Of a stretch of 64,000 bases of DNA, positions 1,815-56,445 are shown in pieces. Within the stretch, counting starts at the first letter, position 1. Each line of letters begins with the position of its first letter. Origin of the DNA: a virus; the IMG/VR virus record IMGVR_UViG_3300020578_000020, positions 42,307 through 106,306 of that record; one strand, given 5' to 3'. The position numbers and the translations under genes were made by a program. The notes below the pieces were generated by a model. The model made no database searches. It worked only from the letters and a program-made list of their open reading frames with translations, and was not told the origin of the DNA.

Positions 1815-3173
1815 ATGTTAACAAAAAAACAAGTTTTACTAGAAGCTCAGAATGGTAAATTAACAGGATTGACATCAATAGGTAATGGTCATCAAATGAA
1901 TGCTGAAGCTGCTAAGGCATATGAAAGAATGGTCGCTGCGGCAAAGAAAGATGGTATAACTTGGAAGGTGACTGACTCATACAGACCTTATGAGATCCAA
2001 AATAAAATCTTTGATTGGAATTACTATGAAAAAACAGGTAAAAAAAGAAAAAAAGGTACTTCAGGTACTCCTGTTGCTTATCCTGGTCAATCTAATCATG
2101 GTTGGGGAAGTGCTGTGGATCTTGGAGCTAAATACGGTGATCCTGTTCATAAATGGTTAACTAAAAACGCGGCAACTTTTGGATTCTCAAACCCATTTAG
2201 GAACCCAAGAACAGAACCTTGGCATTGGGAGCACGTTTCAAGTGCAAAGTCAATGAAATCAGGTGGGGACGTTTCCGAACCCTCACCAAATAAAGAAATA
2301 TCTAAAAATACTGATTTATCAAATTTAACAATTTCTCAAAGTGCGTACCAAGGAGCCGCAAAATCTAATATTGATATGATCATCAATAAACTTAAGAATA
2401 AAGGTATTACTAACCCAATTCCCGTTTTAGGTATATTATCAGTTATTGGGAAAGAAAGTGGTTTTATACCTCAAAGCGAAAAAGGTTATTGTAGTACAGA
2501 TGATAGTAGAATTATAAAAATATTTTCAGATAGAGGTAGAAAGTGTAAAAAACATAAATGTGATGATGAAAAATTCTTTGATTGTGTATATGGCAAAAAT
2601 TCAGGTATTAAATTGGGAAATGATGAAACTGGTGACGGATTCAAATATAGAGGACGAGGATTTAATCAAATAACAGGAAAAGATAACTATCGTAAATACG
2701 GTTTCGAAAATAGTCCTGAAGAATTAAATAGCCCTGAAAAAGCTGCAGATGCAATGATTAATTTCTTAACACCTGAAGGATCTTCATTAAACAACAAATT
2801 TAAAAATTTAGACGAGGCAATTAACTTTTTTGTGACCAGAAATGCAGGTGGGAAAAGATCAAGTATGGAAGAAACAAAGGCTAAAGAGGTTATTTCTAGT
2901 TTCAAGGTTGGTGATCAACTTTCCACAGATTATTTGCCTGCTTCGAATTCAGAAACTTCAACCGTTGGAACCTCAAGAGTTGATTCTGATGAAACTAAAA
3001 ATAATGATAAAGATAAACTCGATGTTCTCGATATGCTCGGTTTGGGTGGGATAAAATCTTATATAAGTTTTTTAAGAGGAGATGAGAAACAGTTTAAAAA
3101 AGATATTGACAAAGACATTAATTTGACCGAACAAACAGAAAGAATCAAAGATTTAATTAAGAAAATTATCTAA
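1815..3173 (+). CDS. two-domain endolysin: M15 peptidase + GH19-type muramidase
   Basis: A 452-residue cell-wall hydrolase. Residues 20-145 are an M15/VanY-type zinc D,D-carboxypeptidase or L-Ala-D-Glu peptidase domain: SYRPYEIQ, then SNHGWGSAVDLG (His95 and Asp102 as zinc ligands) and EPWHWEH (His137/His140 region). After a Ser/Pro/Asn linker, residues about 175-355 are a GH19 chitinase/lysozyme-like domain with GKESGF (likely catalytic Glu) and GDGFKYRGRGFNQITG. The C-terminal 90 residues are charged and unassigned. There is no signal peptide, so export would depend on the holin. A peptide-cutting and a glycan-cutting domain in one protein is a potent lysis design. The assignment is strong for both domains; exact bond specificities are inferred. 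Confidence 0.88.
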   Translation: MLTKKQVLLEAQNGKLTGLTSIGNGHQMNAEAAKAYERMVAAAKKDGITWKVTDSYRPYEIQNKIFDWNYYEKTGKKRKKGTSGTPVAYPGQSNHGWGSAVDLGAKYGDPVHKWLTKNAATFGFSNPFRNPRTEPWHWEHVSSAKSMKSGGDVSEPSPNKEISKNTDLSNLTISQSAYQGAAKSNIDMIINKLKNKGITNPIPVLGILSVIGKESGFIPQSEKGYCSTDDSRIIKIFSDRGRKCKKHKCDDEKFFDCVYGKNSGIKLGNDETGDGFKYRGRGFNQITGKDNYRKYGFENSPEELNSPEKAADAMINFLTPEGSSLNNKFKNLDEAINFFVTRNAGGKRSSMEETKAKEVISSFKVGDQLSTDYLPASNSETSTVGTSRVDSDETKNNDKDKLDVLDMLGLGGIKSYISFLRGDEKQFKKDIDKDINLTEQTERIKDLIKKII

Positions 3174-3226
3174 CTTTCTTGATTTATCCACATATTTCAT
3201 TTATTACTGTAATATAATAATAAAAA

Positions 3227-3385
3227 ATGACAGAAGAGATCAAACAAATAGAAATCTATTATTACTTCGCCAACGGTAGAAAAATTTGGACTACAAATAA
3301 ACTATTTGCTCAAATTAGAGCAATTCATTATGGTATGGGTCAAATCTATGTTGAGGTAATGGATGTAAAAGAAGAAAAAAATTAA
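3227..3385 (+). CDS. small hypothetical protein (52 aa)
   Basis: A 52-residue reading frame from MTEEIKQIEIYYYFANGRK to VMDVKEEKN. It is rich in Tyr and Ile at the start and acidic/basic at the end, without membrane helix or signal peptide. It lies between the endolysin and the promoter of the large RNA and has an A-rich leader. No family is recognised. Composition and position suggest a real gene, but it is short. Confidence 0.5.
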   Translation: MTEEIKQIEIYYYFANGRKIWTTNKLFAQIRAIHYGMGQIYVEVMDVKEEKN

Positions 3386-3403
3386 AAAAAGTTTACAAAT
3401 TAC

Positions 3404-3434
3404 TTGACAGATCGAAATAAATGTCTTAAATTTG
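3404..3434 (+). promoter_or_regulatory. Bacteroidota-type promoter of the large RNA
   Basis: TTG at 3404-3406 (within TTGACA), a 20-nt spacer, then TAAATTTG at 3427-3434. This fits the Bacteroidota primary-sigma consensus TTTG / TAnnTTTG, with an expected start near 3440. The tmRNA promoter at 4948-4978 has exactly the same spacing. Confidence 0.75.
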
Positions 3435-3439
3435 TAGAA

Positions 3440-4421
3440 CAAAACAGGAAAAGTCTTGAAACGTTCTTTGAAAAAATAGATTATCCGTTCAGGAAAAAGT
3501 TTTGTCAGATTCTCTGACAAGTAATTGAGATAAAATTCTCTCCTTTAACTGATAAAGATATTGGGCCGTGTATGGTCCACTAAAATAAACCATGAAAGTG
3601 GGATAAAGTGAATCATTTGTGTTAGATGATTTGCGGCTTCTTCGGAAGCTCGAGTACACAAGCGGGATACCGTTTAATCTTTAGTACCGAGGGCAACGCT
3701 GTAGGGAAAGTGATTAGATGACTTGGCGATGTGGGTCGTCAAATTGAGGTGGGAACACTAAAAGAATTAACCCGTAGGGATATTTGCAAAACGTGAGATT
3801 ATCCGATTTCATTATTGCGTGTTCCAATATTATAGGTCGCTTAAAACCGAAAGGTATGTTGGTGTACGAGTGGTGTCGTTACTAACCTTGACTTACTTCT
3901 ACCAAGAAGTTCGTTTCGAAGTGGTCTTGAAATATGAAGGCAGGGATGTCTTACGGAGTAGTTGAGTATCGACTTGTTCAAAAGATGGGTTGGCTTGGTT
4001 GGCGGACCACTACTTCGATAATCCACGACACAAACTTATGACTATTGAATTAAGTCTAATTAATTATAATACAATAAGGAAAAGTGTCCGTCAGATCTTG
4101 TCGAAAGGTGATTACTTAGTCACGGGCTGTCCGTGGCACATGAGGTTCCCAAGACCAAGTGTATTTTTACCAAAGATCTCTAATCCCGCAAGGACGAGTT
4201 GGGGAGGCATCCTCGAAGAGAGTCGAGTAGTAAGAGTGTAGATAAGATCTCAAGGAGTGGTTCACCTAAATAACCATCACTGAGAAATACTTTCCAAAAG
4301 AAAGTGGATAGGAGTAGAAACAATAATGACTCTAAAGGTTCTCACAAAAACGTGTAATCTCAGCGTTTCTTTTTAATGGAGCCACCGGTAAAAACATTAG
4401 GGACAATTAGTCCCTTTTTTT
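3440..4421 (+). ncRNA. large structured non-coding RNA (GOLLD/ROOL-like candidate)
   Basis: About 980 nt with no credible reading frame, bounded by a host-type promoter and an intrinsic terminator. Base composition is unlike the AT-rich genes: the 60-nt lines at 3661 and 4081 contain 28 and 30 G+C. Many local helices are visible: TTGTCAGA/TCTGACAA at about 3502-3520; GCTTC-TTCG-GAAGC with a UUCG loop at 3636-3649; CTTCT-ACCA-AGAAG at 3896-3909; CACGG/CCGTG at 4121-4135. Phage-borne RNAs of this size, complexity and position next to tRNA-like genes are typical of GOLLD (usually 800-1000 nt) or the shorter ROOL, both known to assemble into large multimeric RNA particles. I cannot recall the GOLLD consensus well enough to confirm the class. 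A new class is possible. Confidence 0.7.
4399..4421 (+). terminator. intrinsic terminator of the large RNA
   Basis: Stem AGGGAC (4399-4404) with GTCCCT (4410-4415), 5-nt loop, then a run of seven T to 4421. Confidence 0.85.
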
Positions 4422-4466
4422 GTGCTTAAAAAAATCACAATCAAACAAACAAAAATTTCGAGGGCA

Positions 4467-4499
4467 TAAAAAAATCCCACCATAATTAAATGATGGGAT
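4467..4499 (-). terminator. intrinsic terminator of tmRNA
   Basis: On the - strand, ATCCCATCAT pairs with ATGGTGGGAT over 10 bp and is followed by T7. One pair is G-U, which works only in the - strand RNA and so fixes the direction. Confidence 0.85.
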
Positions 4500-4503
4500 C
4501 AGT

Positions 4504-4910
4504 TGGTGGACCTAGAGGGCTCCGACTCCCTCGTCCGGCTCGTCTTGTCTAAAAGACAACTACATGTTTAGGTTGGTATTTTCTAATACCCCAAAATATT
4601 TGATTTTGTCCTGATCAAAAACAAGGTTAGTTTGTTCTTTACCATCGTAAACTAACAACCAATGAACCACTCAATTTATAGTTTAATGGTAATCCACTTT
4701 TATCACTTCTGTTCCTGAGCGTATGTGAACCGGCTCGCGTTTCCGTATCTTATTAAGCTACAGTAACTTCAGAACCTCTTAGTAAACCAAGAGTTTCCAT
4801 TTTGTTTAGCACATTGCCAATTGTTGTTCGAATCAGTTTTTAACGAGTTTAATTCAGACCCGACATGCTTCTTTTATTCAACCAACGCCCGTCAAATCCG
4901 ATATAGGCCC
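4504..4910 (-). ncRNA. ssrA: transfer-messenger RNA (tmRNA)
   Basis: A 407-nt tmRNA that would rescue stalled ribosomes by adding a tag. The 5' end reads GGGCCTATATCGGATTTGACG and continues to GCATGTCG, matching the conserved tmRNA start (GGAUUCGACGG...GCAUGCCG). The 3' end is TAGGTCC-A-CCA, with CCA encoded. GGGCCTA and TAGGTCC make a full 7-bp acceptor stem with G3-U70, the alanyl-tRNA synthetase identity pair. A PK1-like pseudoknot is visible: CGGGT/ACTCG and TGAAT/ATTCG. The tag frame ends GSEVTVA then TAA TAA; the likely resume codon is GGC about 10 nt after PK1, giving a tag of about 21 residues starting GNVLN. The tag lacks the usual ALAA end, and the T-loop between GAGGG and CCCTC is an unusual 8-nt AGTCGGAG. 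Confidence 0.93.
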
Positions 4911-4947
4911 ATATATCTTAAATGACTATTTTCAAAGAACTATAGAA

Positions 4948-4978
4948 CAAATATAATACAAAGATTTCACTTTGACAA
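4948..4978 (-). promoter_or_regulatory. Bacteroidota-type promoter of tmRNA
   Basis: On the - strand: TTG (4978-4976), a 20-nt spacer, then TATATTTG (4955-4948), an exact TAnnTTTG. Transcription would start about 30 nt before the mature tmRNA end, leaving a leader for RNase P to remove. Confidence 0.75.
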
Positions 4979-4980
4979 TA

Positions 4981-4988
4981 TATTTATA
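4981..4988 (+). promoter_or_regulatory. TATTTATA element upstream of the 374-aa gene
   Basis: TATTTATA, 5 nt before the ATG at 4994 and directly behind the divergent tmRNA promoter. It is a copy of the recurrent element. Confidence 0.4.
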
Positions 4989-4993
4989 AATAT

Positions 4994-6118
4994 ATGAAAA
5001 AAAGACTTCTTATAGAAAACGACATAGATGATCTAGAAGATTTCAGAAAAATTCTACTTTTAAATAAAAAAAAGTTAGATTATAATGATGTTGAGTTCTA
5101 TAATAAAGATGGAAATAACTTCAGAGATACTGTTGAAGTAACCGCACATGGTTTAATGTTCCATTTTGATGATTTAGAAAAGTTTTTGAAGTTTTTCTTT
5201 CCTGAAACATATAGTGAGAATTCTGATGGTGAATGGGATGCAGTTAACTACGATAGAATGTATTATGGTAATTGGGACTTTTATGGTGAGTGTCAAGATA
5301 GAGCGTACGACGATTGGCATGAGGGATATACCTTAGATTATTTTTGTGACTCTGCAACAATGAAACTAAAACAACTTGCAGAGTTTCTAGATCCATCTAC
5401 AAGTAAAGATTTTAGAATACACCCTAACGGTCGTTTGTACTATGATGGTGCAGGCCATATTACAAGTATACTTGATAAGTTTTTTCCTGAACTCGGTGAT
5501 GAAATTGACGAGATAGTTTGTAGAGGAAAAGATCGTGCAACCTTACAAGGTGCATCAGACTTGATGAAAGACACCTATTGTGATAGTTTGAAACAATTTG
5601 GTATTGAAAATTGGGGTGGAAGAGCAGGATGTTTTAGAACCTATTTTATAAGTTGGGGAAATCTTGTTCAGTTATTTATTGATAAAGGTGATTTTGATGA
5701 GAATGTGTTGGACTTGTTATTTAACTCAGTTGAAAAGGGTTTTAGTGGTCACCCACCTGAGTATTATGAGATTGAACATACTGTTTGGGATAATGAGATT
5801 TTCGAAAGTGAGACTTGTGAAAAATTGGAAGACTTGATGGATGAGTATATTGAAAGGGCTTATGAGGATATTGATTCAGATTATCTCGAAGTAATGAAAA
5901 AAATTAGAAAACTCGGATTATTTAGTTTCAAAAAATTACCCGATAAAAAACATTACCTTAAAGTTGTAAAGGTAGATCCTGAAACACTTAAAGTAACATT
6001 TAGAGTTGGGACCTCACAACAAATCCCAACAAAAATAGGTGTATCAGATGTTGATAGTGTGATTGCAATGGTAACTCAGCCAGGTTTATTTAACCCGACT
6101 GAGTATAGAATTGATTAA
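4994..6118 (+). CDS. acidic protein of unknown function (374 aa)
   Basis: A soluble, acidic protein starting MKKRLLIENDIDDLEDFRK, a start style seen in many proteins of this phage type. It is rich in Asp, Tyr, Trp and Phe (for example NWDFYGECQDRAYDDWHEGY at residues 94-113) and has a compact C-terminal part after residue 315 (HYLKVVKVDPETLKVTFRV). No membrane segment, signal peptide or known catalytic motif is seen. It is divergent from tmRNA and convergent with the M20 peptidase gene; only 2 nt separate the two stop codons. I do not recognise a family. Confidence 0.7.
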   Translation: MKKRLLIENDIDDLEDFRKILLLNKKKLDYNDVEFYNKDGNNFRDTVEVTAHGLMFHFDDLEKFLKFFFPETYSENSDGEWDAVNYDRMYYGNWDFYGECQDRAYDDWHEGYTLDYFCDSATMKLKQLAEFLDPSTSKDFRIHPNGRLYYDGAGHITSILDKFFPELGDEIDEIVCRGKDRATLQGASDLMKDTYCDSLKQFGIENWGGRAGCFRTYFISWGNLVQLFIDKGDFDENVLDLLFNSVEKGFSGHPPEYYEIEHTVWDNEIFESETCEKLEDLMDEYIERAYEDIDSDYLEVMKKIRKLGLFSFKKLPDKKHYLKVVKVDPETLKVTFRVGTSQQIPTKIGVSDVDSVIAMVTQPGLFNPTEYRID

Positions 6119-9463: not shown

Positions 9464-11506
9464 TTATTTAGTTTTATTTCTTCCCCTTCTTTTTGGGTTT
9501 TCTTCTTTGGTTACCACAAGAATTTCATCGTTTTCAACAACCAAAACATACTCCTTATTTTCTTCGATTTCCGACATCAATATCTTTTCTGAAATTAAGT
9601 CTTCAATTTTTTCTTGGATTGCCCGTTTTATAGGTCTTGCCCCGAAAGTTTCATCAAAACCGACTTTTGAAATATACTCAATTAAATCTTGATTATATGT
9701 GAAGATATAATGTTTTTCTAAAACTCTACTTAATAGTTTATCAACCTCGAGTTTTGTGATCTTATCGATATGGTCTTTTTCTAAAGAATTAAAAATAACA
9801 ACATCATCAATTCTATTTAAGAATTCGGGTGCGAAAAACTTCTTCAACTCTTTTTTTAGAACCTCTTGTTTTTCTTCTTCTAATACAACATCACTTTTTG
9901 TGGTTTTGAATCCCATGCCAGTTCCAAAATCTTGTAATTTCTTAACACCAATATTGGATGTCATGATTATTAAACAATTTTTGAAATTGATTTTACGACC
10001 CAAAGAATCGGTAATATGACCATCGTCTAACAACTGTAATAATGTTGAAAATATGTCTTTATGAGCCTTTTCAATCTCATCGAATAATACAACAGAATAA
10101 GGTTTGTTTTTGACTTGTTCGGTTAATTGACCACCTTGGTCATATCCAACGTATCCTGGAGGAGATCCAATAAGTCGAGATATTGTGTGTTTTTCTTGAT
10201 ATTCACTCATATCCACTCTAATCATGTTGTCAGGACTTCCAAAAATTTCTTTTGCCAATTGTTTTGCCAAGTATGTTTTTCCAACTCCTGTTGAACCAAG
10301 AAAAATGAATGATCCTATGGGTTTGTTTGGATCTTTAATACCCATTCGGTTTCTTCTAATTGCTTTTGATATTTTATTTACCGCCTCTTCTTGACCAATT
10401 ACCTTTGAGTTCAAGTTTTCATTCAAACTAATTAAACTATTTCTTTCATCTACGTTGATATTTGAAATTGGAATTTTAGTCATATTTGATACAACTTCAT
10501 AAATCAACTCTTCAGGAATATTTCTTTTACTATTTCTTAAGTGTTGCTCAAATTTCTTTTTTTCTTCCTCCAATTTTGATAGTACACTTCTTTCACGGTC
10601 TCTTAGTTCTGCCGCTTGTTCGTAATTTTGTTTTTTAATTACGTTGAATTTCTCTTGTTTGATGTTGTTTGCTTGTTGCTTGAGGTCTTCAATTTCCTTT
10701 GGTAATTTAACGTCGATTTGCATTCTTGCTCCAACCTCATCTAAAATATCAAAGGCCTTGTCAGGAAATTCGCGATCTGTAATATAACGATCTGCTAACT
10801 CAACAAATATTTTTAATGTTTCATCGTCGTATGAGACTTTATGATGATCCTCATATTTTAATTTACTTAATTTTAATATTTCCAATGTTTCTTCTTTTGA
10901 AGATGGATCAACCACAACTTTTTGAAACCTTCGCTCTAATGCTCCGTCTTTTTCAAAGTTTGTTCGATATTCATCTAAGGTTGTTGCTCCAATACATTGT
11001 ATTTCACCACGAGAAAGTGCTGGTTTGAAGATGTTCGACGCATCTAACGATCCTGAACTATTTCCTGCACCAACAATCGTATGAATTTCATCAATAAATA
11101 AAATAATATTCGGAGTGTTCTGAAGTTCTTCGATTATTACTTTCATCCTTTCTTCAAACTGACCACGGTATTTTGTTCCTGCAACCAAAGAATTCATATC
11201 CAAAGACACGATTCTCTTATCCATAAGATTTTTGGGACATTCTCCTTTGTGAATCATCATAGCAAGACCATCGACGATTGCCGTTTTACCTGCTCCAGGT
11301 TCACCAATAATAATTGGATTATTTTTTTTTCTACGAGATAGAATTTGAGCAATTCTCAAGATTTCTTTTTTTCTTCCAATAACAGGATCAAGTTTCCCAT
11401 CTTGTGCAAACTTATTTAAATCCTTGCTGAAATTATCTAAAACAGGTGTTACACTGTCACTCTTCTTTTTTGATTTGTCGTTTTCTTCATCCATAAATTC
11501 TAACAT
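9464..11506 (-). CDS. ClpC-like AAA+ unfoldase without N-domain
   Basis: A 680-residue Hsp100 protein with two AAA+ modules. Module 1 starts near residue 40 with GEPGAGKTA (Walker A) and [10 protein letters not shown] (Walker B); module 2 has [10 protein letters not shown] and [11 protein letters not shown]. Between them is a short middle region with a UVR-type motif ([11 protein letters not shown]), which marks ClpC rather than ClpA/ClpB. The usual N-terminal repeat domain is missing; about 30 charged residues stand in its place. In module 2, [20 protein letters not shown] carries MGF where ClpC has its VGF ClpP-docking loop, so coupling to host ClpP is possible. It would unfold proteins or remodel complexes; loss of the N-domain suggests changed substrate or adaptor choice. 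Confidence 0.9.
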
Positions 11507-11677: not shown

Positions 11678-13546
11678 ATGGGAAAAATTATCGGAATAGA
11701 TTTAGGGACTACTAATTCTTGTGTGGCAGTAATGGAAGGTCGCGAACCTGTGGTAATCACAAACAGCGAAGGTAAAAGAACAACACCATCTGTTGTTGGA
11801 TTTATTAAAGATGGTGAGAGAAAAATTGGAGATCCAGCAAAACGACAGGCTGTAACAAATCCAAATAAAACAATCTACTCAATCAAAAGATTTATGGGAA
11901 GTAAATTCGAGGAAACAAAAAGTGAAATATCGAAAGTTCCTTATAAAATCATAAACGAAAATCAAACACCAAAGGTTAAAATTGATGATAGAAGTTTTTC
12001 TCCACAAGAAATCTCCGCGGCAATTCTTCAAAAAATGAAACAAACCGCTGAAGACTACTTAGGTCAAAAGGTCACAGATGCGGTGATTACGGTTCCTGCA
12101 TACTTTAATGACGCACAAAGACAAGCAACAAAAGAAGCTGGTGAGATTGCTGGTCTAAATGTTAAAAGAATCATCAACGAACCTACCGCAGCGGCTTTAG
12201 CATATGGATTAGATAAAATTTCAAAAGACATGAAAATAGTTGTATTTGACTGTGGTGGTGGAACACATGACGTATCTGTATTGGAACTTGGTGATGGTGT
12301 ATTTGAAGTATTATCCACTGACGGGGATACTCATTTGGGTGGTGATGACTTTGATCAGGTAATTATTGATTTTTTGGCGTCAGAATTTAAACAAAATACA
12401 GGAATCGATGCGACAAAAGATCCTATGGCACTTCAAAGATTAAAAGAGGCAGGTGAAAAAGCAAAAATAGAATTATCATCTTCACCACAAACTGAAATTA
12501 ATTTACCTTATTTATCGGCAGATTCAACAGGGCCCAAACACCTTGTTGTAACAATCACAAAATCAAAATTCGATCAACTAACTGAGGATTTGGTAAAAAG
12601 AACAATTAGACCATGTGAATCGGCCTTGAAAAAGGCTGGTTTAAAACCAAGTGATATTGATGAGATTATTTTGGTGGGAGGATCAACACGTATTCCAGCA
12701 ATTCAAGAAGCCGTAAAAAAATTTTTTGGTAAAGATCCTTCAAAAGGGGTTAATCCCGACGAGGTGGTTGCCTTAGGGGCCGCAATTCAAGGTGGTGTTT
12801 TGGGTGGTGATGTTACTGATGTATTATTATTGGATATAACTCCACTTTCATTGGGTATTGAAACAATGGGTGGCGTATTTACAAAACTAATTGATGCAAA
12901 CACAACTATTCCAACAAAAAAATCTGAAACATTCTCAACGGCAGTTGATAACCAACCAACGGTAGAAATTCATGTTCTTCAAGGAGAAAGAGCGATGGCA
13001 AAAGACAACAGAACTATTGGTAAATTTAATTTGGACGGTATTCCACCAGCAAGACGAGGAACTCCTCAAATCGAAGTAACTTTCGATATTGACGCGAACG
13101 GTATAATCAATGTATCTGCGGTCGACAAAGCAACAAATAAAGTTCAATCTATTCGTATTGAGTCATCATCAGGTCTTTCAAAAGAAGAAGTTGAAAGAAT
13201 GAAAAGGGAGGCTGAAATAAATGCTGAGGCGGACAAAAAACTTAAAGAAGACGCTGATACTTTAAATTCGGCAGATTCATTAATGTTCCAAGTTGGTAAA
13301 TCACTCGAGGATCTTGGTGACAAAATCTCTGAAGAAGAAAAATCTGAAATTAACTCCAAAGTTGAGAAATTAAGAGAAGCTTGTAATAAGAAAGATATTT
13401 CACAAGTTAAAACACTTACCGAAGAAGTCAATAAAAAGTTTCAAGAGATAAGTCAAAAGTTGTATGAACAAACAAATCAAACAACACCTAATGATGAAGT
13501 TACAGAAGAAGACTTCCAAAATGTTGAGTTCGAAGAAGTAAAATAA
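11678..13546 (+). CDS. dnaK: DnaK (Hsp70) chaperone
   Basis: A full-length 622-residue Hsp70. The nucleotide-binding domain starts [15 protein letters not shown] and contains [10 protein letters not shown]. The substrate-binding domain has the usual linker ([19 protein letters not shown]), and the tail ends in NVEFEEVK, like Bacteroidota DnaK. The phosphate-2 motif reads [14 protein letters not shown] instead of the usual DLGGGTFDVS, two changes close to the nucleotide. It is divergent from the ClpC-like gene. No phage J-domain or GrpE is seen here, so it would need host co-chaperones. It probably helps folding or assembly of virion proteins. A strong hairpin terminator follows. Confidence 0.97.
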
Positions 13547-22256: not shown

Positions 22257-22967
22257 ATGTTTGGAGAATTAAAATCAAAAATAGAAGTTTGTTTGACAGA
22301 GTCATATAAGAAAAACAAAATAAAAGATCATTTGTTTATCTTTGAAGAACTTGTTTTGAAAAACAAAAATATATCGAAAATATTTTTTATTTATGATGAG
22401 TTATCGTCTAAAAAAGAATTACAGGAAAGTTTAGCAACAGAATTTATTCATGAATCCATTACGGTTTATGAAAATACTTTAAACAAAATAGCACCTATAC
22501 ATATTAAAGAACTAAAAATGTGGGTTGGTAATATCAAATGTAAAAACAATTATCAAGATATTGACAACCTGTTTTCAAAAAATATTTTATCGTTAGAGAG
22601 TAAAATTCAAAGCAAAAAAATAATTTTAGAAACTCTCAAAAGTAAAAAAGACAAGAAAAAAGAAGTAATTAATGTTCCTTTGAAATCTATGATAAATGTT
22701 GCAAATAGAACGGTTACAAAATTCATTGAATCATTAACTGAATCTGAAAAAAAAGAACTCAAAACAATTCTAAATATTCCAAAAGAAAAATTAATTGAAA
22801 ATTATAATGAAACAAAACTTTTTGTTTTAGAAAAATTAGAGGAACAAAAAAAAAATTCAGATAACGAAACTTTAAAAACAATAGATTTAGTTATGGAAAA
22901 AATTCAAACCGAATCTTTTAATGAATTAAATTATTATAAATTAAAACAACTGAAAGGAGATCTTTAA
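22257..22967 (+). CDS. lysine-rich helical protein between portal and protease
   Basis: A 236-residue, highly charged, helical protein starting MFGELKSKIEVCLTESYKK. A TTG nine bases upstream is possible but the ATG fits the leader better. Long Lys/Glu helices (KKIILETLKSKKDKKKE; KLFVLEKLEEQKKNSDN) suggest coiled-coil or core packing. In T4 this interval holds small prohead core proteins, so an internal or core role is possible, but no sequence match is recognised. Its stop overlaps the stop of the antisense bS21 gene by 4 nt. Confidence 0.6.
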   Translation: MFGELKSKIEVCLTESYKKNKIKDHLFIFEELVLKNKNISKIFFIYDELSSKKELQESLATEFIHESITVYENTLNKIAPIHIKELKMWVGNIKCKNNYQDIDNLFSKNILSLESKIQSKKIILETLKSKKDKKKEVINVPLKSMINVANRTVTKFIESLTESEKKELKTILNIPKEKLIENYNETKLFVLEKLEEQKKNSDNETLKTIDLVMEKIQTESFNELNYYKLKQLKGDL

Positions 22968-41018: not shown

Positions 41019-41465
41019 TTATCTTACAAATCTTTTGGATGTTTCTTGGTCATAAATTAAATTTCTTAAGTTAGTAGATGAAAAATTATGATCTCTCTTG
41101 TTATAGGCGAACTTTATGCCTCTTTTTTGACAAATGTTTTTTGCCGTAAAGTCCTTTTCTTTATATTCTTCACCTATTATCCTAACATCTAAATCTAAAG
41201 ATAAAAATATTGATTCGAGCTCTTCCTCCGAATTATATGGTATAATTTTATCTACGTGTTTTACTGCATCTAATTGAATATATCTTTCAACCAAAGTCTG
41301 TATTGGTTTGTTTTTTTCTGGTCTATCAATTGTTGGATCTATTTGTAGTGCGCATATTAGATAGTCACAATATTTTTTACACTCTTCTAACATTATTATA
41401 TGGCCTGCGTGTAAAAGATCAAATGTTGAACAAGTAATACCTATAGTTCTGTTTTGTTTATCCAT
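41019..41465 (-). CDS. cytidylyltransferase-like protein
   Basis: A 148-residue nucleotidyltransferase of the TagD/RfaE type. TCSTFDLLHAGHIIMLEECK (about residues 11-30) contains the HxGH signature, PIQTLVERYIQLDAV follows, and FSSTNLRNLI near the end matches the ISST(x)LR motif. It would activate a polyol- or sugar-phosphate with CTP or ATP (glycerol-3-phosphate, heptose-phosphate and others are possible). It overlaps the GDP-fucose synthase gene by 8 nt, so it belongs to the sugar pathway block. Confidence 0.82.
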   Translation of the reverse strand: MDKQNRTIGITCSTFDLLHAGHIIMLEECKKYCDYLICALQIDPTIDRPEKNKPIQTLVERYIQLDAVKHVDKIIPYNSEEELESIFLSLDLDVRIIGEEYKEKDFTAKNICQKRGIKFAYNKRDHNFSSTNLRNLIYDQETSKRFVR

Positions 41466-42375
41466 TTTTTCTTACAAAACTATAATTGTTTTCGAAAAAT
41501 TCAATAGTTTCTTTTAACCCTTCATATATAGGAGTGAACTTAAATTCAGGTAAATAATTTTTTATTTTAGAATTGTCAGAAGGTTTTCTATGTTGACCAT
41601 CAGGTTTAGATGAATCAAACATTACTTCACCTTTAAAATTCATCAGCTCAATAATAATATTAACAATCTCTTTAATTGATATTTCTTCTGATGTTGAAAG
41701 TATTATTGGTTCATTTTCATTGTAATTAAACAGCGCCCATTCAGTTAATTTTGCAACATCTTTACTAAAAATAAATTCTCTTAGCGGATTTCCTGATCCC
41801 CATATTTTAAGAGGGGTTTTATTTTCTCTTGCAAGATAACATTTGTGAATTAGTGACGGTATAACATGACCATTAATAATATCGTAATTATCATTAGGAC
41901 CATAGATATTTGATGGTATAACTGATTTATAATTTAATCCATACTGTTCTTTATATGCTGTTATTTGAATATCGGTCATTCTTTTAGCATATGCATATGC
42001 GTCATTAGAAAAGTGGGGTGGACCCAAATGAACTTTTTTCTCAGTTAAGGGATATTCTACATTATCGGGGAATACACATGTTGACAAAAATGCCACTAAA
42101 TTTTTTACTTTTGTAAGTCTTGAAGACTCTATTACGTTAGTGTTTATCATTATGTTGTCATAAAAAAATTCTCCTTTATGATTCATATTACCACCTAACC
42201 CACCTACTTTTCCCGCAGTATGTATTACACTATCAAAATTCTTTAACATTAATCTATTAACTTCTTGTGGATTTCTTAAATCATATTCTTTAGAAGTTGG
42301 TTTGAAATATTGGTCACCAATAAATTCAGACCCAACCAAACCATGACCGCCTGTTACTAAAATTTTATTTTCCAT
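41458..42375 (-). CDS. fcl: GDP-L-fucose synthase
   Basis: A 305-residue epimerase/reductase of the SDR family. NAD(P)-binding motif ILVTGGHGLVGSEFI (about residues 5-19), then HTAGKVGGLGGN, LSTCVFPDN, and the catalytic YxxxK in AYAYAKRMTD. These are the standard Fcl/WcaG motifs. It converts GDP-4-keto-6-deoxymannose, the product of the neighbouring dehydratase, to GDP-L-fucose. With GT10 and GT11 type transferases in the same block, this completes a fucose supply-and-use set, given host GDP-mannose. Confidence 0.92.
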   Translation of the reverse strand: MENKILVTGGHGLVGSEFIGDQYFKPTSKEYDLRNPQEVNRLMLKNFDSVIHTAGKVGGLGGNMNHKGEFFYDNIMINTNVIESSRLTKVKNLVAFLSTCVFPDNVEYPLTEKKVHLGPPHFSNDAYAYAKRMTDIQITAYKEQYGLNYKSVIPSNIYGPNDNYDIINGHVIPSLIHKCYLARENKTPLKIWGSGNPLREFIFSKDVAKLTEWALFNYNENEPIILSTSEEISIKEIVNIIIELMNFKGEVMFDSSKPDGQHRKPSDNSKIKNYLPEFKFTPIYEGLKETIEFFENNYSFVRKNG

Positions 42376-43750
42376 AATATTTTAACCAATATTTAATCAT
42401 TTCAGCTAACATTGTTTCAAATGTGTATTCAGGTTGCCACATTAAATATTTTCTTAATTTTGATGAATCACCTTTAAGGTTTTCTAACTCTTCGGGTCTA
42501 AAATGTTTTTCGTCAACAACAATATATTCTAAATAATTTAAACCTAATGAACTAAATACGTATTCACATAAGTCTTTTACTGAATGTGAAATACCTGTCG
42601 CACAAACATAATCATCAGGTTTTTCGGTTTGTAACATTAACCACATTGCATAAACATAATCTTTTGCGTGACCCCAATCTCTTGTTGCTGATAAATTACC
42701 AATATGTAATTTGTCTTGTAAACCTAAACTAATTCTTACTGCGGCTTTAACTACTTTATTTGTTACAAAGTTAGTTCCTCGTCTTGGTGATTCATGATTG
42801 AACAAAATTCCATTCCATATTTTCATACCATAAGAGTTTCTATAATTTCTACATATATTATATGAAAAAACTTTAGCACACCCATACGGCGAAACCGGAT
42901 TCATGGGTGTAGTTTCCCTTTGGTACCCGTCACTATCTATGTTATTTCCAAACATTTCTGAAGAAGAAGCTTGATAAATTTTAGAGTGTGGTGAAACCAT
43001 TCTAACCGCTTCTAACATATTTAATGTACCTAATCCCGTTGCGTTCGCGGTGTATATCGGTTGATCAAATGATATTCTAACATGAGATTGAGCGGCTAAG
43101 TTATAAACCTCATCTGGTTGAACCATCTTCAAAACCCTAATTAATGAGGCCATATCCGTTAAGTCAGCATACTCTAAAGTAATTTTATTGTCGTCTCTTA
43201 AATGATCAATTCTTGTTGATTGTGTTTCTGATACTGAATTTCTTTTAACTGTACCCCAAACTTCATAACCTTTTTCTACTAAAAGTTCTGCCAAGTAAGA
43301 ACCGTCTTGGCCATTTATACCTGTAATTAATGCTTTATTTTTTTTAGATTTTTTCATTATATATGATTTTTCGTTTTCCTTAATTATTTTAAAATTTAAA
43401 TTTTTGTAGATTTTTAGTGCCATAATATTGTCCTTATCTACAGATAAAAGTATATCACCATTATAAGAATTAATCAACGATTCGACAATATATTTACCAT
43501 ACCCCATACCATTATTTCCGTCAAAAACTATCACCCCTAACCATACATTACCATCTTCTTCATCTAAATGCCCATAACCTACACATTTACCATTATTAAA
43601 ATATAAAAAAGTGATTTTATGTTTTTGTAATACTGAAAAATCTCTTTTTTGAAAGTACCTAAATGTTTTTGTTCCTTTTGGGCTATTATCTATGTGATTC
43701 CTTAGTAACTCAATATCCTTTTCTGATGTAATTTTTTTTTGTTTTAACAT
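42365..43750 (-). CDS. gmd: fusion: GNAT acetyltransferase + GDP-mannose 4,6-dehydratase
   Basis: A 461-residue two-domain protein. I chose MLKQKKITSEKD at 43750; an earlier ATG at 43789 lies inside the upstream gene. Residues 1-135 form a GNAT domain (VWLGVIVFDGNNGMGYGKYI is the acetyl-CoA loop; LLSVDKDNIMALKIYKNLNF is the usual last strand-helix). From residue 140 a complete GMD follows: ALITGINGQDGSYLAELL, NLAAQSHVRISF, YQASSSEMFG, SPYGCAKVFSYN (YxxxK) and RDWGHAKDYVYAM. GMD makes GDP-4-keto-6-deoxymannose. The GNAT may acylate an amino sugar made from it by the aminotransferase encoded at 44189. The fusion itself is unusual. It overlaps fcl by 11 nt. Confidence 0.9.
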   Translation of the reverse strand: MLKQKKITSEKDIELLRNHIDNSPKGTKTFRYFQKRDFSVLQKHKITFLYFNNGKCVGYGHLDEEDGNVWLGVIVFDGNNGMGYGKYIVESLINSYNGDILLSVDKDNIMALKIYKNLNFKIIKENEKSYIMKKSKKNKALITGINGQDGSYLAELLVEKGYEVWGTVKRNSVSETQSTRIDHLRDDNKITLEYADLTDMASLIRVLKMVQPDEVYNLAAQSHVRISFDQPIYTANATGLGTLNMLEAVRMVSPHSKIYQASSSEMFGNNIDSDGYQRETTPMNPVSPYGCAKVFSYNICRNYRNSYGMKIWNGILFNHESPRRGTNFVTNKVVKAAVRISLGLQDKLHIGNLSATRDWGHAKDYVYAMWLMLQTEKPDDYVCATGISHSVKDLCEYVFSSLGLNYLEYIVVDEKHFRPEELENLKGDSSKLRKYLMWQPEYTFETMLAEMIKYWLKYYGK

Positions 43751-43757
43751 GGTGAAA

Positions 43758-44192
43758 TTAATAATTTTCAATAAAGTCACTACACACACCTAAACATAAA
43801 TTAATATCTTCGTTATTAATCTCAGGTAATACTGAAATACTACCCTTAATTGGTTGTTTTCCGGGATATGCCCAAATAAAATTTAAAGAGGTAAGTGTTA
43901 TGTGGTCTTCTTGGTGCCAAAAATAATTAAAATCATACCCACATTCTTTAAAGAATAGTACTGAGTCGATGTCTTTACAATGTATCCACAATTTAGATAA
44001 TCTATCCTTAAACCAATTGAAATCAACCCCGTATTGAGGGTTATCGTGACCCAACCAAAGAATATTATCTATAAACCAAACGTCAACTTCAACATCATAT
44101 CCTTTTGATATTGCTAAATCAATGTAGTTCGGTTCGTTTTCATAAGACTCAAATTTACCATTAATATTACCTCTGTGTGAAATTTTTATCAT
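43758..44192 (-). CDS. GDPD-like protein
   Basis: A 144-residue protein resembling the first part of glycerophosphodiester phosphodiesterases: IKISHRGNINGK (catalytic-type HRG, residues 2-13), ENEPNYIDLAISKGYDVEVD (the ExD metal site near residue 37) and ILWLGHDNPQYG (the second His). The TIM barrel is shorter than in full GDPDs (about 240), so it may be a minimal form. It could trim a glycerophospho group from a glycan or lipid. It sits between the aminotransferase and the GMD fusion, ATG overlapping the upstream stop region. Confidence 0.65.
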   Translation of the reverse strand: MIKISHRGNINGKFESYENEPNYIDLAISKGYDVEVDVWFIDNILWLGHDNPQYGVDFNWFKDRLSKLWIHCKDIDSVLFFKECGYDFNYFWHQEDHITLTSLNFIWAYPGKQPIKGSISVLPEINNEDINLCLGVCSDFIENY

Positions 44193-45283
44193 TTTTTTAA
44201 TTTAAAGAAATCTTTTATTAGTCTGCAAATATATAATACTTGACCTTTATTCAAATTAGGGGAACTTGGTAATAATAATACCTGTGAATTTAGTGTGTCA
44301 GATATGGTGTTATCTGATTTTATATTTTTTAAATGTTTGTGTGAATTAATTGAGTAAAACATAGGCCTAGTCTCAACACCCATTTTATATAGATGCAATT
44401 CCAAAGACCTTTTAATGTCTATATCAATATTATTAAATCTTAGTGAAAACATCCAGTTTGAGTGAATAGTACCTGACTCAATTTCTTGAAATTCAACATT
44501 GTCCAACGTTTTTAGATTTTCACGATACAAATTAAAGATCTCATTTTTCTTATCAATAATTTCATTCATAATCTCTAACTGACCATATAGAATTGCTGCT
44601 TGTATATTGGTCATTCTATAGTTATAACCTAAATTGTTATGTATAAATTTTTCACTTGATTGACCCTGATTTCTGATGTTATTTATATACTCGAATGTTT
44701 CATCGTCGTTTGTTATAAAACAACCTCCTTCACCACTTGTTATTGTCTTATTACCAAAAAAAGAAACTGAAGAACAAAGTGATTTAGTTCCCGAATAATG
44801 GTCATCGTATTTTCCCAAAAATCCCTCACAATTATCTTCAACAATTAAAGTGTTTTTAAATTTATTCTGTAGTTTAGGTACATTAACTATGTTACCTAAA
44901 TTGTGAACAACTAAAATGGCGTCGTTTTTTTTAGGATTGATTAAATCTTCGTTAAAATTCCAAGTTTTTATGTCGGTATCAATCGGTTTTAAATTAAAAT
45001 GATTATCATATAAAAATGAATTCCAAGCGGCGACATAAACATTATTAGGGCAAATAATGTTATTGATGTTAGGGTTTTTATGGATTAATGATTTTGACAA
45101 TAAATGAGTTGCCGTGGTACCATTATTTGTTAATACAATCCATTTAACATTTAAAATTGATTTCAATTTTTCTTTTGCAGCATCTAAATAATAACCTTGA
45201 GATGAGATCCAAGTAGAATCTAACGCTTCGTGAGCGTAAGATAATGTTTTTTTATTTAGATAAGGTTCATAGATTTTTATCAT
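44189..45283 (-). CDS. DegT/DnrJ/EryC1-type sugar aminotransferase
   Basis: A 364-residue PLP enzyme. KKNDAILVVHNLGN and EDNCEGFLGKY are typical. The Schiff-base lysine is in SFFGNKTITSGEGGCF (about residues 171-186), and NLGYNYRMTNIQAAILYGQL closes the active site. The family transfers an amino group from glutamate to a keto-sugar nucleotide. Next to GMD, the most likely reaction is 4-amination of GDP-4-keto-6-deoxymannose to GDP-perosamine, which the GNAT domain could then acylate. The sugar assignment is inference; the family is clear. Confidence 0.88.
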   Translation of the reverse strand: MIKIYEPYLNKKTLSYAHEALDSTWISSQGYYLDAAKEKLKSILNVKWIVLTNNGTTATHLLSKSLIHKNPNINNIICPNNVYVAAWNSFLYDNHFNLKPIDTDIKTWNFNEDLINPKKNDAILVVHNLGNIVNVPKLQNKFKNTLIVEDNCEGFLGKYDDHYSGTKSLCSSVSFFGNKTITSGEGGCFITNDDETFEYINNIRNQGQSSEKFIHNNLGYNYRMTNIQAAILYGQLEIMNEIIDKKNEIFNLYRENLKTLDNVEFQEIESGTIHSNWMFSLRFNNIDIDIKRSLELHLYKMGVETRPMFYSINSHKHLKNIKSDNTISDTLNSQVLLLPSSPNLNKGQVLYICRLIKDFFKLKK

Positions 45284-45295
45284 AAATTCAGTAAG

Positions 45296-46186
45296 TTATT
45301 TTCTGGCAACTTTCATTACTGAATTATAATAGTATTCACAACATTTATCAATATTATGGTTTGATTTAAATTCCTCATGACCTCTTAACCCTAAATCAAG
45401 ATATCTATTGTCTTCTAACAAATAATTTATTTTTTCCTCAAGGTTGGAGTAATCATCATTAAATATTTCATAGTTACTCAACTCCATGTGGTTTGAGTCA
45501 ACGGAATGACTTCTCATTTTTGGCATTAATAATGCGGTTTTACAAGATAGGATTTCCCAAATCCTAATTGAGTCGTAGGAATTACCAAAATAATGGAGAC
45601 CAATTTTAGATTGGTTTGTAATATTTCTAAAGTTTTCAGTTGCAAATCCTGGTTTGTAATTTGCTCCATTAACATCTATATACCAATTAAGATGACTTAA
45701 AGTCGTTTGTGATAAATTAATAATGTAATCAACAAAAGGTCTTCTTCTTGGATTTGTCATGTTACCAATAAAAGATATATCATATGGTTTATCTGTTATA
45801 TTTTCATCATATATACTATTCATTGGGAAATGAAATGGTATAACAGGTGATTTTGTTGTTATATGTGTATTATCTGTCAATTCTCTTTGCATGAATATAT
45901 CAGGTTCTCTGATTGTCCATCTTTGTAATTGTTCTTCATCGGTATCGTCGTGTTGGATAAGGAAACTATTTCTCAGTTGATTATCTAATAAAGAATTTAT
46001 TCTACGCAATTGATTCGGTTCGTGCAAATAAACAACCACATTTTTATAACTAACGGTTGGGTTAAAATAATGAATGGTATTCTCATCAACAATATCAATA
46101 GAATGACCCATCTTTTCAAAATATTTAAAGTAAGTTGTTGATCCCCACACCCAAGAGTAGTTAAAAAATAAAAAATCCTTTTCCAT
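45296..46186 (-). CDS. glycosyltransferase-like protein (CgeB/GT1-like)
   Basis: A 296-residue protein with a C-terminal GT-B half: YDISFIGNMTNPRRRPFVDY (about residues 123-142), then IGLHYFGNSYDSIRIWEILS with the Glu used for donor binding, and a final helix set SNYEIFNDDYSNLEEKINYL. The N-terminal half is short. It resembles CgeB-like spore/LPS glycosyltransferases. Acceptor unknown. It follows the remnant at 46191 and precedes the aminotransferase by 12 nt. Confidence 0.68.
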   Translation of the reverse strand: MEKDFLFFNYSWVWGSTTYFKYFEKMGHSIDIVDENTIHYFNPTVSYKNVVVYLHEPNQLRRINSLLDNQLRNSFLIQHDDTDEEQLQRWTIREPDIFMQRELTDNTHITTKSPVIPFHFPMNSIYDENITDKPYDISFIGNMTNPRRRPFVDYIINLSQTTLSHLNWYIDVNGANYKPGFATENFRNITNQSKIGLHYFGNSYDSIRIWEILSCKTALLMPKMRSHSVDSNHMELSNYEIFNDDYSNLEEKINYLLEDNRYLDLGLRGHEEFKSNHNIDKCCEYYYNSVMKVARK

Positions 46187-46190
46187 AATG

Positions 46191-46436
46191 TTATTTTAAT
46201 ATATTATAATTTATATTGCTTGTTGTGTTTATTTCTGTTGTGACATAATTTTCTAAATAAAATTTCAAAACTTTTTCAGCATGTGATATGTCAAAATTAT
46301 GTTCTATATATATTCTGTGCATATAGTTCCATAAATCAGAATATTTTTTCATAAAATCTATATTTCCATATGATATGTGATCGTTAAAAATTTGTAATCC
46401 TTGATACTCGGCAAGACTAAATGGGATTGTTTCATA
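46191..46436 (-). pseudogene. 5'-truncated gene remnant without start codon
   Basis: An 82-codon open stretch directly after, and in frame with, the stop of the upstream gene. It begins YETIPFSLAEYQGLQIFNDH and ends in NINYNILK then TAA. It has no ATG until FMKKYSD. Its composition is that of a normal protein C-terminus. The likely reading is the 3' remainder of a glycan-locus gene whose 5' part was replaced by the 102-residue gene; readthrough of the TAA is a less likely alternative. Confidence 0.45.
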
Positions 46437-46745
46437 TTAGTATGTCTTGTGAGATCGTTGTAAAAATTTACCGTTATCAAGATCCTCACCTGAAAACTTA
46501 GCGTTAATTAGTTCGATTAATTTTTCGTCAACTTCATTGATTAGTTGGTTTCTTTGAACATTCAGATCGGTCGCTTTCTTTAAGGTTTCCCAAAGTTTTT
46601 GAGCTCCCTCTTCATCGTTAAAATATTTTTCTTTATATTCATCAAAAGTCATTCTTCTTATTTCATATAATAACTCTTGATTAGTCCACATCTTCATATC
46701 AACGGTAACTAATTTGTCGATAACATTACCTAAAGTATCAGCCAT
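46437..46745 (-). CDS. conserved phage protein (102 aa)
   Basis: A 102-residue helical protein starting MADTLGNVIDKLVTVDMKMW and ending FLQRSHKTY. The start (MADTLGxxxDKL) and the HKTY end are a pattern I know from many marine T4-like phages; function unknown. It sits alone within the glycan block, flanked by a gene remnant downstream, which suggests that it or the neighbours moved. Confidence 0.72.
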   Translation of the reverse strand: MADTLGNVIDKLVTVDMKMWTNQELLYEIRRMTFDEYKEKYFNDEEGAQKLWETLKKATDLNVQRNQLINEVDEKLIELINAKFSGEDLDNGKFLQRSHKTY

Positions 46746-46766
46746 TTTATTTATTTAATTGTTTAT

Positions 46767-47465
46767 TTATTTAATTACTTTTATGCCATTTTTACTAATA
46801 TATTCGCTAAGTTCAACCCTATCGGAATACATATGGGCAAAAACGTTATTATTAAGTTTATAACACATTAGTAGTGAAAGGAAAGAACTACTAATTATGT
46901 GACATTCTTTTGCGTTTTCAATTACCTTTAATAATGAAAAAGTTTTGTATTTTCTATCCGCATAAATTACTGGCAAATCAATATTAATTTTACGTCTATC
47001 TATTAGTATGTTTTCATCTTTTTTTTCGTGTATAAAAACATAATTACTAATATTATTATTTAATATTAATTCTTGGTAAACCCTATTTTCCTCATTAATG
47101 TCCCTCTCGATATGAAAATATTCGTGTTTGATTTTTGGGTCATATCCGGCCATCATATAAAATGAGTCATCAAAGTCCTTAGAATAATCAAATGTTTTTT
47201 GACCTATTAGAAACGATGAAATTATTTTATGAAATCTATTCGTTAATGTGTACCTATCCATATCATTATCGTTATTTATCTCAACAACTTTAATCTTATT
47301 GATGTCCCGATACATAAATTTAACATTATCTATATTGTGTGATTTTGCGGGTACGTAAATATCATATTCAGGGTAATCCTCAGAAATCTTCCTTACCATC
47401 CCATTATGGACAATATTATCCCCCAATCCTAAATGTTGTTTAACAAATATTTTTTTAGTAGACAT
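46767..47465 (-). CDS. glycosyltransferase-like protein (GT9-like)
   Basis: A 232-residue protein; I prefer MSTKKIFVKQHLGLGDNIVH at 47465 over a Met three codons earlier. LGLGDNIVHNGMVRKISEDY resembles the start of heptosyltransferase-like GT-B proteins, and the C-terminal half has KECHIISSSFLSLLMCYKLN, like the donor-site part. It is short for a full GT-B enzyme (usually over 320). Acceptor and sugar unknown. It overlaps the end of the SGNH-like gene. Confidence 0.6.
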   Translation of the reverse strand: MSTKKIFVKQHLGLGDNIVHNGMVRKISEDYPEYDIYVPAKSHNIDNVKFMYRDINKIKVVEINNDNDMDRYTLTNRFHKIISSFLIGQKTFDYSKDFDDSFYMMAGYDPKIKHEYFHIERDINEENRVYQELILNNNISNYVFIHEKKDENILIDRRKINIDLPVIYADRKYKTFSLLKVIENAKECHIISSSFLSLLMCYKLNNNVFAHMYSDRVELSEYISKNGIKVIK

Positions 47466-47994
47466 AGATTCCAATTTCTTTAAATTTTGTTTGTATGATT
47501 TCTTTAACTAAGTCATGTTTTAAATGACAATAATCCATAAAGTAATTCATTTTAGTTAGTCCGTCAATACCTATAAGGTCTTTAATTATTGAAACGTGCG
47601 GTATGTTGTTTTCAATAAACAAAGATTCTATATATGAGTCCCATTTTAAACTTATTGTATTTCTAAAACGACAATCCCCAATAATAGGTTCTGAGGGGTT
47701 TTCGCTAGGTCCTGATATGGTTGATGGGTGGCCACCCCAACCAATTACATTATATCCCCTTTCTTTTAGGTCTAAATAGGTTCTAAAAAATCTATCAACA
47801 CATTCTATAATTACCTCATCAATTGGTCTACTTTGCAATTGAATTTGTTTTGGTAGGTGAACTCGGCAATCAACCTCACCTACAATTAACATTACATAAT
47901 CGTTTTTTTTATCTAAACAGTATAAATCAAATGAATCTAAAAAATTAATGTTGTATTGATAATGTTTATTATATGTTGGGATGACGATATTCAT
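47455..47994 (-). CDS. SGNH-hydrolase-like protein
   Basis: A 179-residue protein. VMLIVGEVDCRVHLPKQIQL (about residues 34-53) and VIGWGGHPSTISGPSEN, then FMDYCHLKHDL (about 153-163), fit the SGNH-like proteins of polysaccharide loci, where GExDCR and the final D-x-x-H are conserved. These often add or remove O-acyl groups on sugars. The nucleophile Ser is not obvious, so it may be a non-hydrolytic relative. It lies between the HAD/nucleotidyltransferase fusion and a glycosyltransferase. Confidence 0.62.
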   Translation of the reverse strand: MNIVIPTYNKHYQYNINFLDSFDLYCLDKKNDYVMLIVGEVDCRVHLPKQIQLQSRPIDEVIIECVDRFFRTYLDLKERGYNVIGWGGHPSTISGPSENPSEPIIGDCRFRNTISLKWDSYIESLFIENNIPHVSIIKDLIGIDGLTKMNYFMDYCHLKHDLVKEIIQTKFKEIGIYVY

Positions 47995-47996
47995 TT

Positions 47997-50043: not shown

Positions 50044-50048
50044 TTTCT

Positions 50049-50738: not shown

Positions 50739-50739
50739 T

Positions 50740-51534: not shown

Positions 51535-51537
51535 AAT

Positions 51538-53721: not shown

Positions 53722-53727
53722 ATTATT

Positions 53728-56443: not shown

Positions 56444-56445
56444 TT

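Follow-up and report, generated by a model that had tools for sequence, protein, structure and literature searches.

The closest described counterpart of the RNA analysed here is GOLLD env-38, which forms an RNA-only cage, a 14-mer, as resolved by cryo-EM (PMC12286853). The same article reports that GOLLD expression goes up during lysis, cites a ribosome pull-down for GOLLD, and presents ROOL as a further giant phage RNA cage. The proximity of GOLLD to tRNA has already been published (PMC12286853; PMC6582537), and GOLLD and tmRNA are treated as separate RNAs where PMC6582537 deals with them. The words 'boxA', 'antitermination' and 'tmRNA' are absent from the main text of PMC12286853, and no paper joining GOLLD with boxA was found in a literature search that lay mostly outside subscription papers. 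The RNA class itself is known; a boxA expression signal and a tmRNA partner of GOLLD were not found reported.

The window, i.e. the whole stretch of DNA that was analysed, covers 64,000 bases out of a virus record of 106,306. Within it, no credible protein gene occupies the roughly 1.6 kb between an endolysin-like gene (1815-3173) with a trailing 52-aa frame and a frame starting at 4994, and this gap holds two over-cut-off Rfam RNAs, GOLLD on the plus strand and tmRNA on the minus strand. The span 3404-4421, for which a large, folded phage RNA had been predicted, corresponds to the GOLLD gene from promoter through terminator. The features are as follows:

3404-3434 (+): promoter TTGACA...TAAATTTG, Bacteroidota-type -33/-7
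3437-4421 (+): predicted GOLLD transcript, starting where the promoter places it and closing with the T run of the terminator
3463-3471 (+): boxA-like element GTTCTTTGA, 28 nt past the -7 box
3560-3953 (+): structured part, GOLLD 5' domain, with covarying helices, outside the Rfam model
3568-3573/3654-3659 (+): candidate pseudoknot in the GOLLD 5' domain, with two-sided changes
3954-4366 (+): GOLLD 3' domain, RF02032
4027-4083 (+): variable linker within the 3' domain, from the alignment; ARAGORN calls no tRNA there
4187-4191 (+): loop CGCAA with self-complementary GC, about where GOLLD loop L21a (bridge B8) sits
4399-4421 (+): GOLLD intrinsic terminator, stem 4399-4415, then a T run
4473-4500 (-): intrinsic terminator-like site trailing the tmRNA
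4504-4910 (-): phage tmRNA, RF00023, 80.2 bits against a cut-off of 47
4753-4818 (-): putative tmRNA tag frame GNVLNKMETLGLLRGSEVTVA plus stop, start inferred from relative L037
4932-4940 (-): boxA-like element GTTCTTTGA in the tmRNA leader
4948-4978 (-): tmRNA promoter TTGTCA...TATATTTG

The RNA is a full-length GOLLD gene, since its 3' domain matched the Rfam model with 315 bits (cut-off 150) over model positions 1-416 of 416. Rfam includes a ROOL model as well, which gave no match over its gathering score, nor any in 3300-5000 at an E-value of up to 1; the locus therefore shares with ROOL the character of a giant phage RNA but lacks an Rfam ROOL match, and both ROOL and a new RNA class were ruled out by these searches. 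The original prediction had offered a divergent GOLLD-type RNA or a new class, to be decided by such a search of the GOLLD and ROOL models: the GOLLD assignment stood, the new class did not, and 'divergent' proved too strong a word because the 3' domain spans the entire model at twice the cut-off. From promoter to model end the non-coding RNA measures about 930 nt, which suits a family where many members exceed 800 nt; its part 3437-3953, comprising leader and 5' domain, lies beyond the Rfam model. Its G+C content (3437-4366) is 40.0%, against 30.9% for the whole window and 29.7% for 2400-3400, and the counts of 28/60 and 30/60 on which a sudden rise in G+C had been proposed are exact. The predicted fold has an energy of -256.2 kcal/mol (z -3.0, 20 shuffles). 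The host-type promoter and the clean terminator that had been described were likewise recovered, the former as TTGACA-17-TAAATT at 3404-3432 within a longer match ending TAAATTTG at 3434, the latter as the stem 4399-4415 plus a T run. The locus resembles env-38 in its full-model 3' domain, two-domain plan, size class, phage location and a self-complementary loop at about the L21a position; it differs in its boxA-like leader, its convergent tmRNA and its probable residence in a Bacteroidota phage, and in the part before the 3' domain, which is about 517 nt here (about 394 of them structured) and 420 nt in env-38. Taking family, structure and leader together, we put the probability of this reading at roughly 0.8.

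The earlier view that the region holds no credible gene was borne out. The longest frame inside the RNA encodes 83 aa (3990-4241, +) and is open in only one of the 28 aligned relatives, while four further inside frames of 47-61 aa are open in 4, 11, 2 and 4 of the 28. Across the 29 sequences, the longest frame per sequence ranged from 45 to 117 aa, at varied places and on either strand, and of the 266 indels in the structured part 15 were multiples of three and 251 were not. A protein frame conserved across homologues, which would have spoken against a structured RNA, was looked for and none was conserved; a coding gene is ruled out on this basis.

Relatives were gathered with a pattern from the GOLLD 3' domain, which returned 77 viral records, and GOLLD scored over the cut-off in 50 of these 77 pattern records (8/34 and 42/43 in two batches); L022, cut by its contig end, scored 101.6 bits, and L020, also cut by its contig end, gave no Rfam match. 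Removal of sequences at least 96% identical over most of their length left 39 non-redundant GOLLD sequences, of which 29 were aligned, by sequence alone; the alignment is without L004, L011, L042, L048, L053, L058, L061, L112 and L113, which are too distant, and L111, which was held out as a test. For cross-validation, a consensus structure was derived from 16 close relatives (window included) and tested on 13 that are more distant. Of the 1406 cells that these 13 sequences contribute to the 5' domain, 1302 were paired (92.6%), and 68 of 109 pairs had two-sided changes, compared with 39-44% paired and 18-27 pairs changed on both sides when the partners were slid; in the 3' domain the corresponding values were 1172 of 1266 (92.6%) and 64 of 98, against 37-49% and 16-30. 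With the 3' letters shuffled in the 13-sequence test, 77% and 74% of cells were paired in the two domains. When the structure was drawn from, and scored on, the same 29 rows, 201 consensus pairs had 97.0% of their cells paired (slid 39-45%), and 137 pairs displayed two-sided changes (slid 38-61; shuffled mean 90). The many perfect local helices first noticed by inspection are thus real, and the helices of both domains covary among homologues, an outcome on which the prediction had been staked.

Pairings beyond the consensus with two-sided changes, scored without a null control, were noted at 3568-3573/3654-3659, 3954-3960/4011-4017 and 4107-4111/4277-4281, the second of which is a helix of the Rfam GOLLD model. 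The loop at 4187-4191 reads CGCAA with GC in 25 of the 29 rows and GUCGA with CG in the other 4; Kretsch et al. describe a self-complementary dinucleotide in L21a, bridge B8 (PMC12286853), and from its position in the model the present loop may be placed at about L21a. The core of the 5' domain, the less conserved of the two in GOLLD, was built as a covariance model of 117 positions, which matched the held-out huge-phage locus L111 (107 bits), L004 and L011 (38 bits) and, weakly although in the right place, the Acinetobacter phage L112 (20.5 bits, E 0.03). It had no match in L042, L048, L053, L058, L061 or the other Acinetobacter phage, L113, and nothing at E up to 1 was returned from ten GOLLD-less loci. 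The 5' domain alignment provides a covariation-supported model for the half of GOLLD that is absent from Rfam. That the window carries a decayed, non-functional copy is barely conceivable: the absence of a tRNA after its GOLLD would fit such decay, but the 416/416 model match, the strong selection on pairs and the presence of promoter, boxA and terminator all oppose it.

Antitermination through boxA is used by bacteria mainly for ribosomal RNA, where boxA recruits NusB-NusE and so helps polymerase to complete a long untranslated RNA. The leader of the GOLLD gene carries TTG-N-TAnnTTTG at 3404-3434, which we take to be the Bacteroidota-type promoter motif, and 36 of 50 GOLLD loci have a promoter of this type where one would be expected. 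The motif GYTCTTTRA precedes the 3' domain in 39 of the 50 testable loci, i.e. those with enough upstream DNA (7 of 57 were too short upstream), compared with a background of 0.04 per 700 nt, many of the loci being near-duplicates. The remaining 11 of 50 gave no such motif: nine distant loci, two Acinetobacter phages among them, together with L045 and L111. A boxA is thus no general part of GOLLD. Promoter and motif were both found in 26 of the 29 aligned loci, spaced by 26-29 nt in 17 and by 33-137 nt in 9, and majority-base identity was 96.9% in the motif columns, against 67.5% in the leader before and 48.1% in the leader after them.

Relative to the gamma-proteobacterial boxA consensus GYTCTTTAANA given in PMC5725501, GTTCTTTGA differs at position 8 (G). 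Leaders of the presumed host group were collected with a 16S pattern in genome contigs, which gave at least 80 loci, nearly all titled Bacteroidota, with one Saccharibacteria and one titled only bacterium; among the matches listed, 75 genes with at least 300 nt upstream were examined (6 had less). GYTCTTTRA was present within 400 nt upstream of 16S in 29 of these 75 listed genes (background 0.023), and exact GTTCTTTGA at -200 to -50 in only 27 of the 75; allowing up to one mismatch to GTTCTTTGA, 44 of the 75 listed leaders carried it at -200 to -50, compared with 8 of 328 control stretches, the commonest variant in the listed leaders being GTTCATTGA. The presumed host group thus has this same string in rRNA leaders of its own. 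It resembles the boxA of rRNA operons in that the same 9-nt string leads a long untranslated structured RNA; unlike the boxA/Nus system of rRNA operons, GOLLD is a phage RNA, and the resemblance here is one of string match.

In a census of 45 chosen GOLLD loci, the window not among them, 38 of 95 motifs lead GOLLD (within 620 nt), 15 tmRNA (within 120 nt) and 5 tRNA (within 300 nt), and 37 lead neither. Within the window, GYTCTTTRA was found 5 times on both strands against 4.0 expected, which is chance level, and the case for a boxA therefore rests on the places of the motif and on the relatives. The window has two exact copies of GTTCTTTGA, one in the GOLLD leader and one in that of the tmRNA, and a promoter accompanies the motif at three sites, these two leaders and 22504-22567 (-). 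This third match lies opposite a 239-aa frame, and may be due to chance or mark an antisense RNA.

A competing explanation for the conservation of GTTCTTTGA is that it is not a boxA and instead constitutes a GOLLD strand that closes the molecule by pairing with the conserved AAGGAG stretch (4250-4257). RNAalifold does pair 3464-3471 with 4250-4257, with 97.8% of cells pairing; however, two-sided change was seen in none of the 8 pairs, one pair is unpaired in 3 of the 29 sequences, and in the 13 test sequences 98.1% of cells pair, against 98.5% with shuffled letters, a value that conservation alone would yield. Additionally, the identical 9 nt stand before many tmRNA genes and before some tRNA genes, and AAGGAGTGGTT occurs too in motif-less GOLLDs, e.g. 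L053 and L048. Such a closing strand is improbable, and boxA is preferred because the pairing shows no two-sided change; GTTCTTTGA probably functions as a boxA.

Several further observations concern these signals. In L005, L031, L074, L019 and L110 the boxA motif also precedes tRNA genes by no more than 300 nt. L040, L074, L037, L021, L057, L017 and L043 have another promoter-plus-boxA match that belongs to neither the GOLLD nor the tmRNA leader; in several of them it immediately precedes the GOLLD leader, and it perhaps serves a further small RNA. An inverted repeat GACA...TGTC (or GTCT...AGAC) was seen by eye in the promoter spacer of several GOLLD loci and is a possible operator; as a common feature of the spacer this dyad was dropped, being missing from many loci.

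The tmRNA matches its model in full (1-374 of 374) and is convergent with GOLLD; the two genes have promoters of one type and share the boxA string. ARAGORN does not call the window tmRNA (those of relatives L037, L035 and L052 are recognised), which has G3-U70 and a tag frame with a stop; G3-U70 is present in 26 of 27 phage tmRNAs, the exception (L105) perhaps having a misplaced 3' end. The putative tag GNVLNKMETLGLLRGSEVTVA has 21 residues and ends TVA rather than ALAA, the tag given by ARAGORN for L037 is GNVLNKMATIGLIREDAAVAA, and a tag frame of the same pattern exists in 24 of 26 relatives (L080 and L081 differ). As a control, 24 of at least 80 16S loci were used, giving 23 Bacteroidota-genome tmRNAs; for these 23 listed genomes ARAGORN reported a 9-residue tag ending AA (e.g. 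GENNYALAA) in 18, none in 3 and a longer one in 2. The phage gene is therefore like the Bacteroidota-type tmRNA in its full-length RF00023 match, its G3-U70 and its tag frame, and unlike it in a tag of 21 residues ending TVA where the bacterial tags have 9 residues ending AA, so that tagged products may escape handling by the usual proteases of the host. A 680-aa double AAA+ unfoldase related to ClpA/ClpB is encoded at 9464-11506 (-), scoring under the cut-offs of the named equivalogs, and could pair with the phage tmRNA tag; a full-length DnaK (Hsp70) gene lies at 11678-13546 (+), scoring 1001 bits against the NCBIfam DnaK model and so over its cut-off.

A tmRNA over the cut-off was found in 26 of the 50 records searched and in 15 of the 20 GOLLD records of at least 50 kb, being absent from the other 5; at E 1e-15 none was detected in two huge phages, two Acinetobacter phages and two further GOLLD records. 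GOLLD and tmRNA stand tail to tail in 23 of the 26 records (24 of 27 counting the window), with a gap of 111 to about 3,300 nt, several of these records being near-duplicates. In L035 and L052 the tmRNA precedes GOLLD in the same orientation, no more than about 2 kb away, and in the record of L065 it lies far from GOLLD. Within 130 nt, the phage tmRNA leaders contain boxA in 19 of 26 cases (20 of 27 counting the window) and the promoter in 24 of 26, while the 23 Bacteroidota-genome leaders among the matches listed contain boxA in 3 and the promoter pattern in 5. A weak control was provided by GOLLD-less pattern records, 5 of 25 of which have a tmRNA, the search pattern lying inside the tmRNA in at least L028 and L059. 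These data may be read in another way, namely that the two RNAs adjoin merely by descent in one phage clade and do no joint work, and we give this somewhat less than an even chance. The near-duplicate records, the 5 of 20 long GOLLD records without a tmRNA, its absence at the above threshold from the huge and Acinetobacter phages and the wide separation in L065 are in keeping with descent, but the order is kept though the gap varies widely, L035 and L052 are arranged otherwise and yet remain close, and promoter type and boxA are mostly common to both RNAs.

Of the tRNA-like genes near which such RNAs often sit, a tmRNA adjoins GOLLD here, and ARAGORN found no tRNA over the 64-kb window. Among the relatives, ARAGORN places a co-directional tRNA 7-20 nt past the 3' end of GOLLD in 13 of 52 loci, Met(CAT) in 7 of these 13; in L111 and L113 it follows at 9 nt. 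Unlike many relatives, the window has a terminator in place of the tRNA, and, by eye, a comparable hairpin followed by Ts is seen in its nearest relatives. Directly after GOLLD, L034 and L008 carry what by eye is a truncated or odd hairpin resembling a tRNA, and L019 a tRNA with an unusual anticodon loop.

Terminase, portal and T4-like major head protein are among the large genes of the window, and the phages matched with terminase and head protein indicate that the phage is T4-like. The nearest records by these two proteins include Flavobacterium phage immuto (26% identity for terminase, 41% for head protein), a Microcystis phage and an uncultured huge phage; a search of immuto, a near isolate, found both GOLLD and tmRNA absent. 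The host group is probably Bacteroidota: the proposal of a Bacteroidota phage is supported, short of proof, by the promoter type, the form of boxA and the presence of a Flavobacterium phage among the nearest isolates. Two huge-phage records, of 634,780 and 642,428 bases, carry GOLLD, and Bacteroidetes hosts have been predicted for the five genomes above 634 kb in the set treated by Al-Shayeb et al. (PMC7162821); the two records presumably belong to those five. A sugar-nucleotide/glycosyltransferase block is located at 41458-57672 (-), with epimerases, a GDP-mannose dehydratase-like protein, an aminotransferase, a HAD/nucleotidyltransferase and a GtrB-like protein.

We propose that host RNA polymerase would start just past the Bacteroidota-type promoter and that the nascent RNA would then expose boxA, 28 nt beyond the -7 box; as happens on rRNA operons, this element probably brings in the NusB-NusE (S10) antitermination complex of the host. 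Because boxA would recruit this complex, the untranslated and strongly folded RNA of about 930 nt could be completed without early (e.g. Rho) termination, its folding perhaps being aided by NusB-NusE, and the transcript would be ended by the intrinsic terminator. By analogy with the solved GOLLD, the RNA would fold into its 5' and 3' domains and assemble as a hollow RNA-only cage, an outcome that we regard as likely. Together with the convergent tmRNA and, in some relatives, the directly following tRNAs, GOLLD may make up a group of stable RNAs that serves translation once the cell is infected, and its most likely job there would be to hold or protect parts of the translation apparatus (ribosomes, tRNA or tmRNA) while infection proceeds, although this role is a guess that we hold to be doubtful. 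The cage may instead be unrelated to translation, acting as a scaffold or shield for other phage parts or as a nuclease or defence decoy, the tRNA and tmRNA neighbours then merely marking a stable-RNA locus. This is a serious contender short of even odds: the text of PMC12286853 offers no established GOLLD function, and a shared boxA would be expected too if every long untranslated RNA needs antitermination, but the cited ribosome pull-down (PMC12286853) and the tRNA within 20 nt after GOLLD in 13 of 52 loci tell against it.

Returning to the translation-directed reading, large Bacteroidota phages might deploy a boxA-led stable-RNA set and an unfoldase/DnaK module to seize translation and quality control, a suggestion that we advance tentatively. 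If it is true, GOLLD, a phage-type tmRNA and some tRNA arrays would be made via borrowed host antitermination machinery, and the cage RNA would be run alongside a tmRNA with its own 21-residue tag, joined in this phage by a ClpA/ClpB-like unfoldase and DnaK. Whether antitermination of the rRNA kind serves to make the cage RNA can be approached through the shared promoter-plus-boxA leader, and whether the GOLLD cage acts on ribosomes, tRNA or tmRNA through the tmRNA partner.
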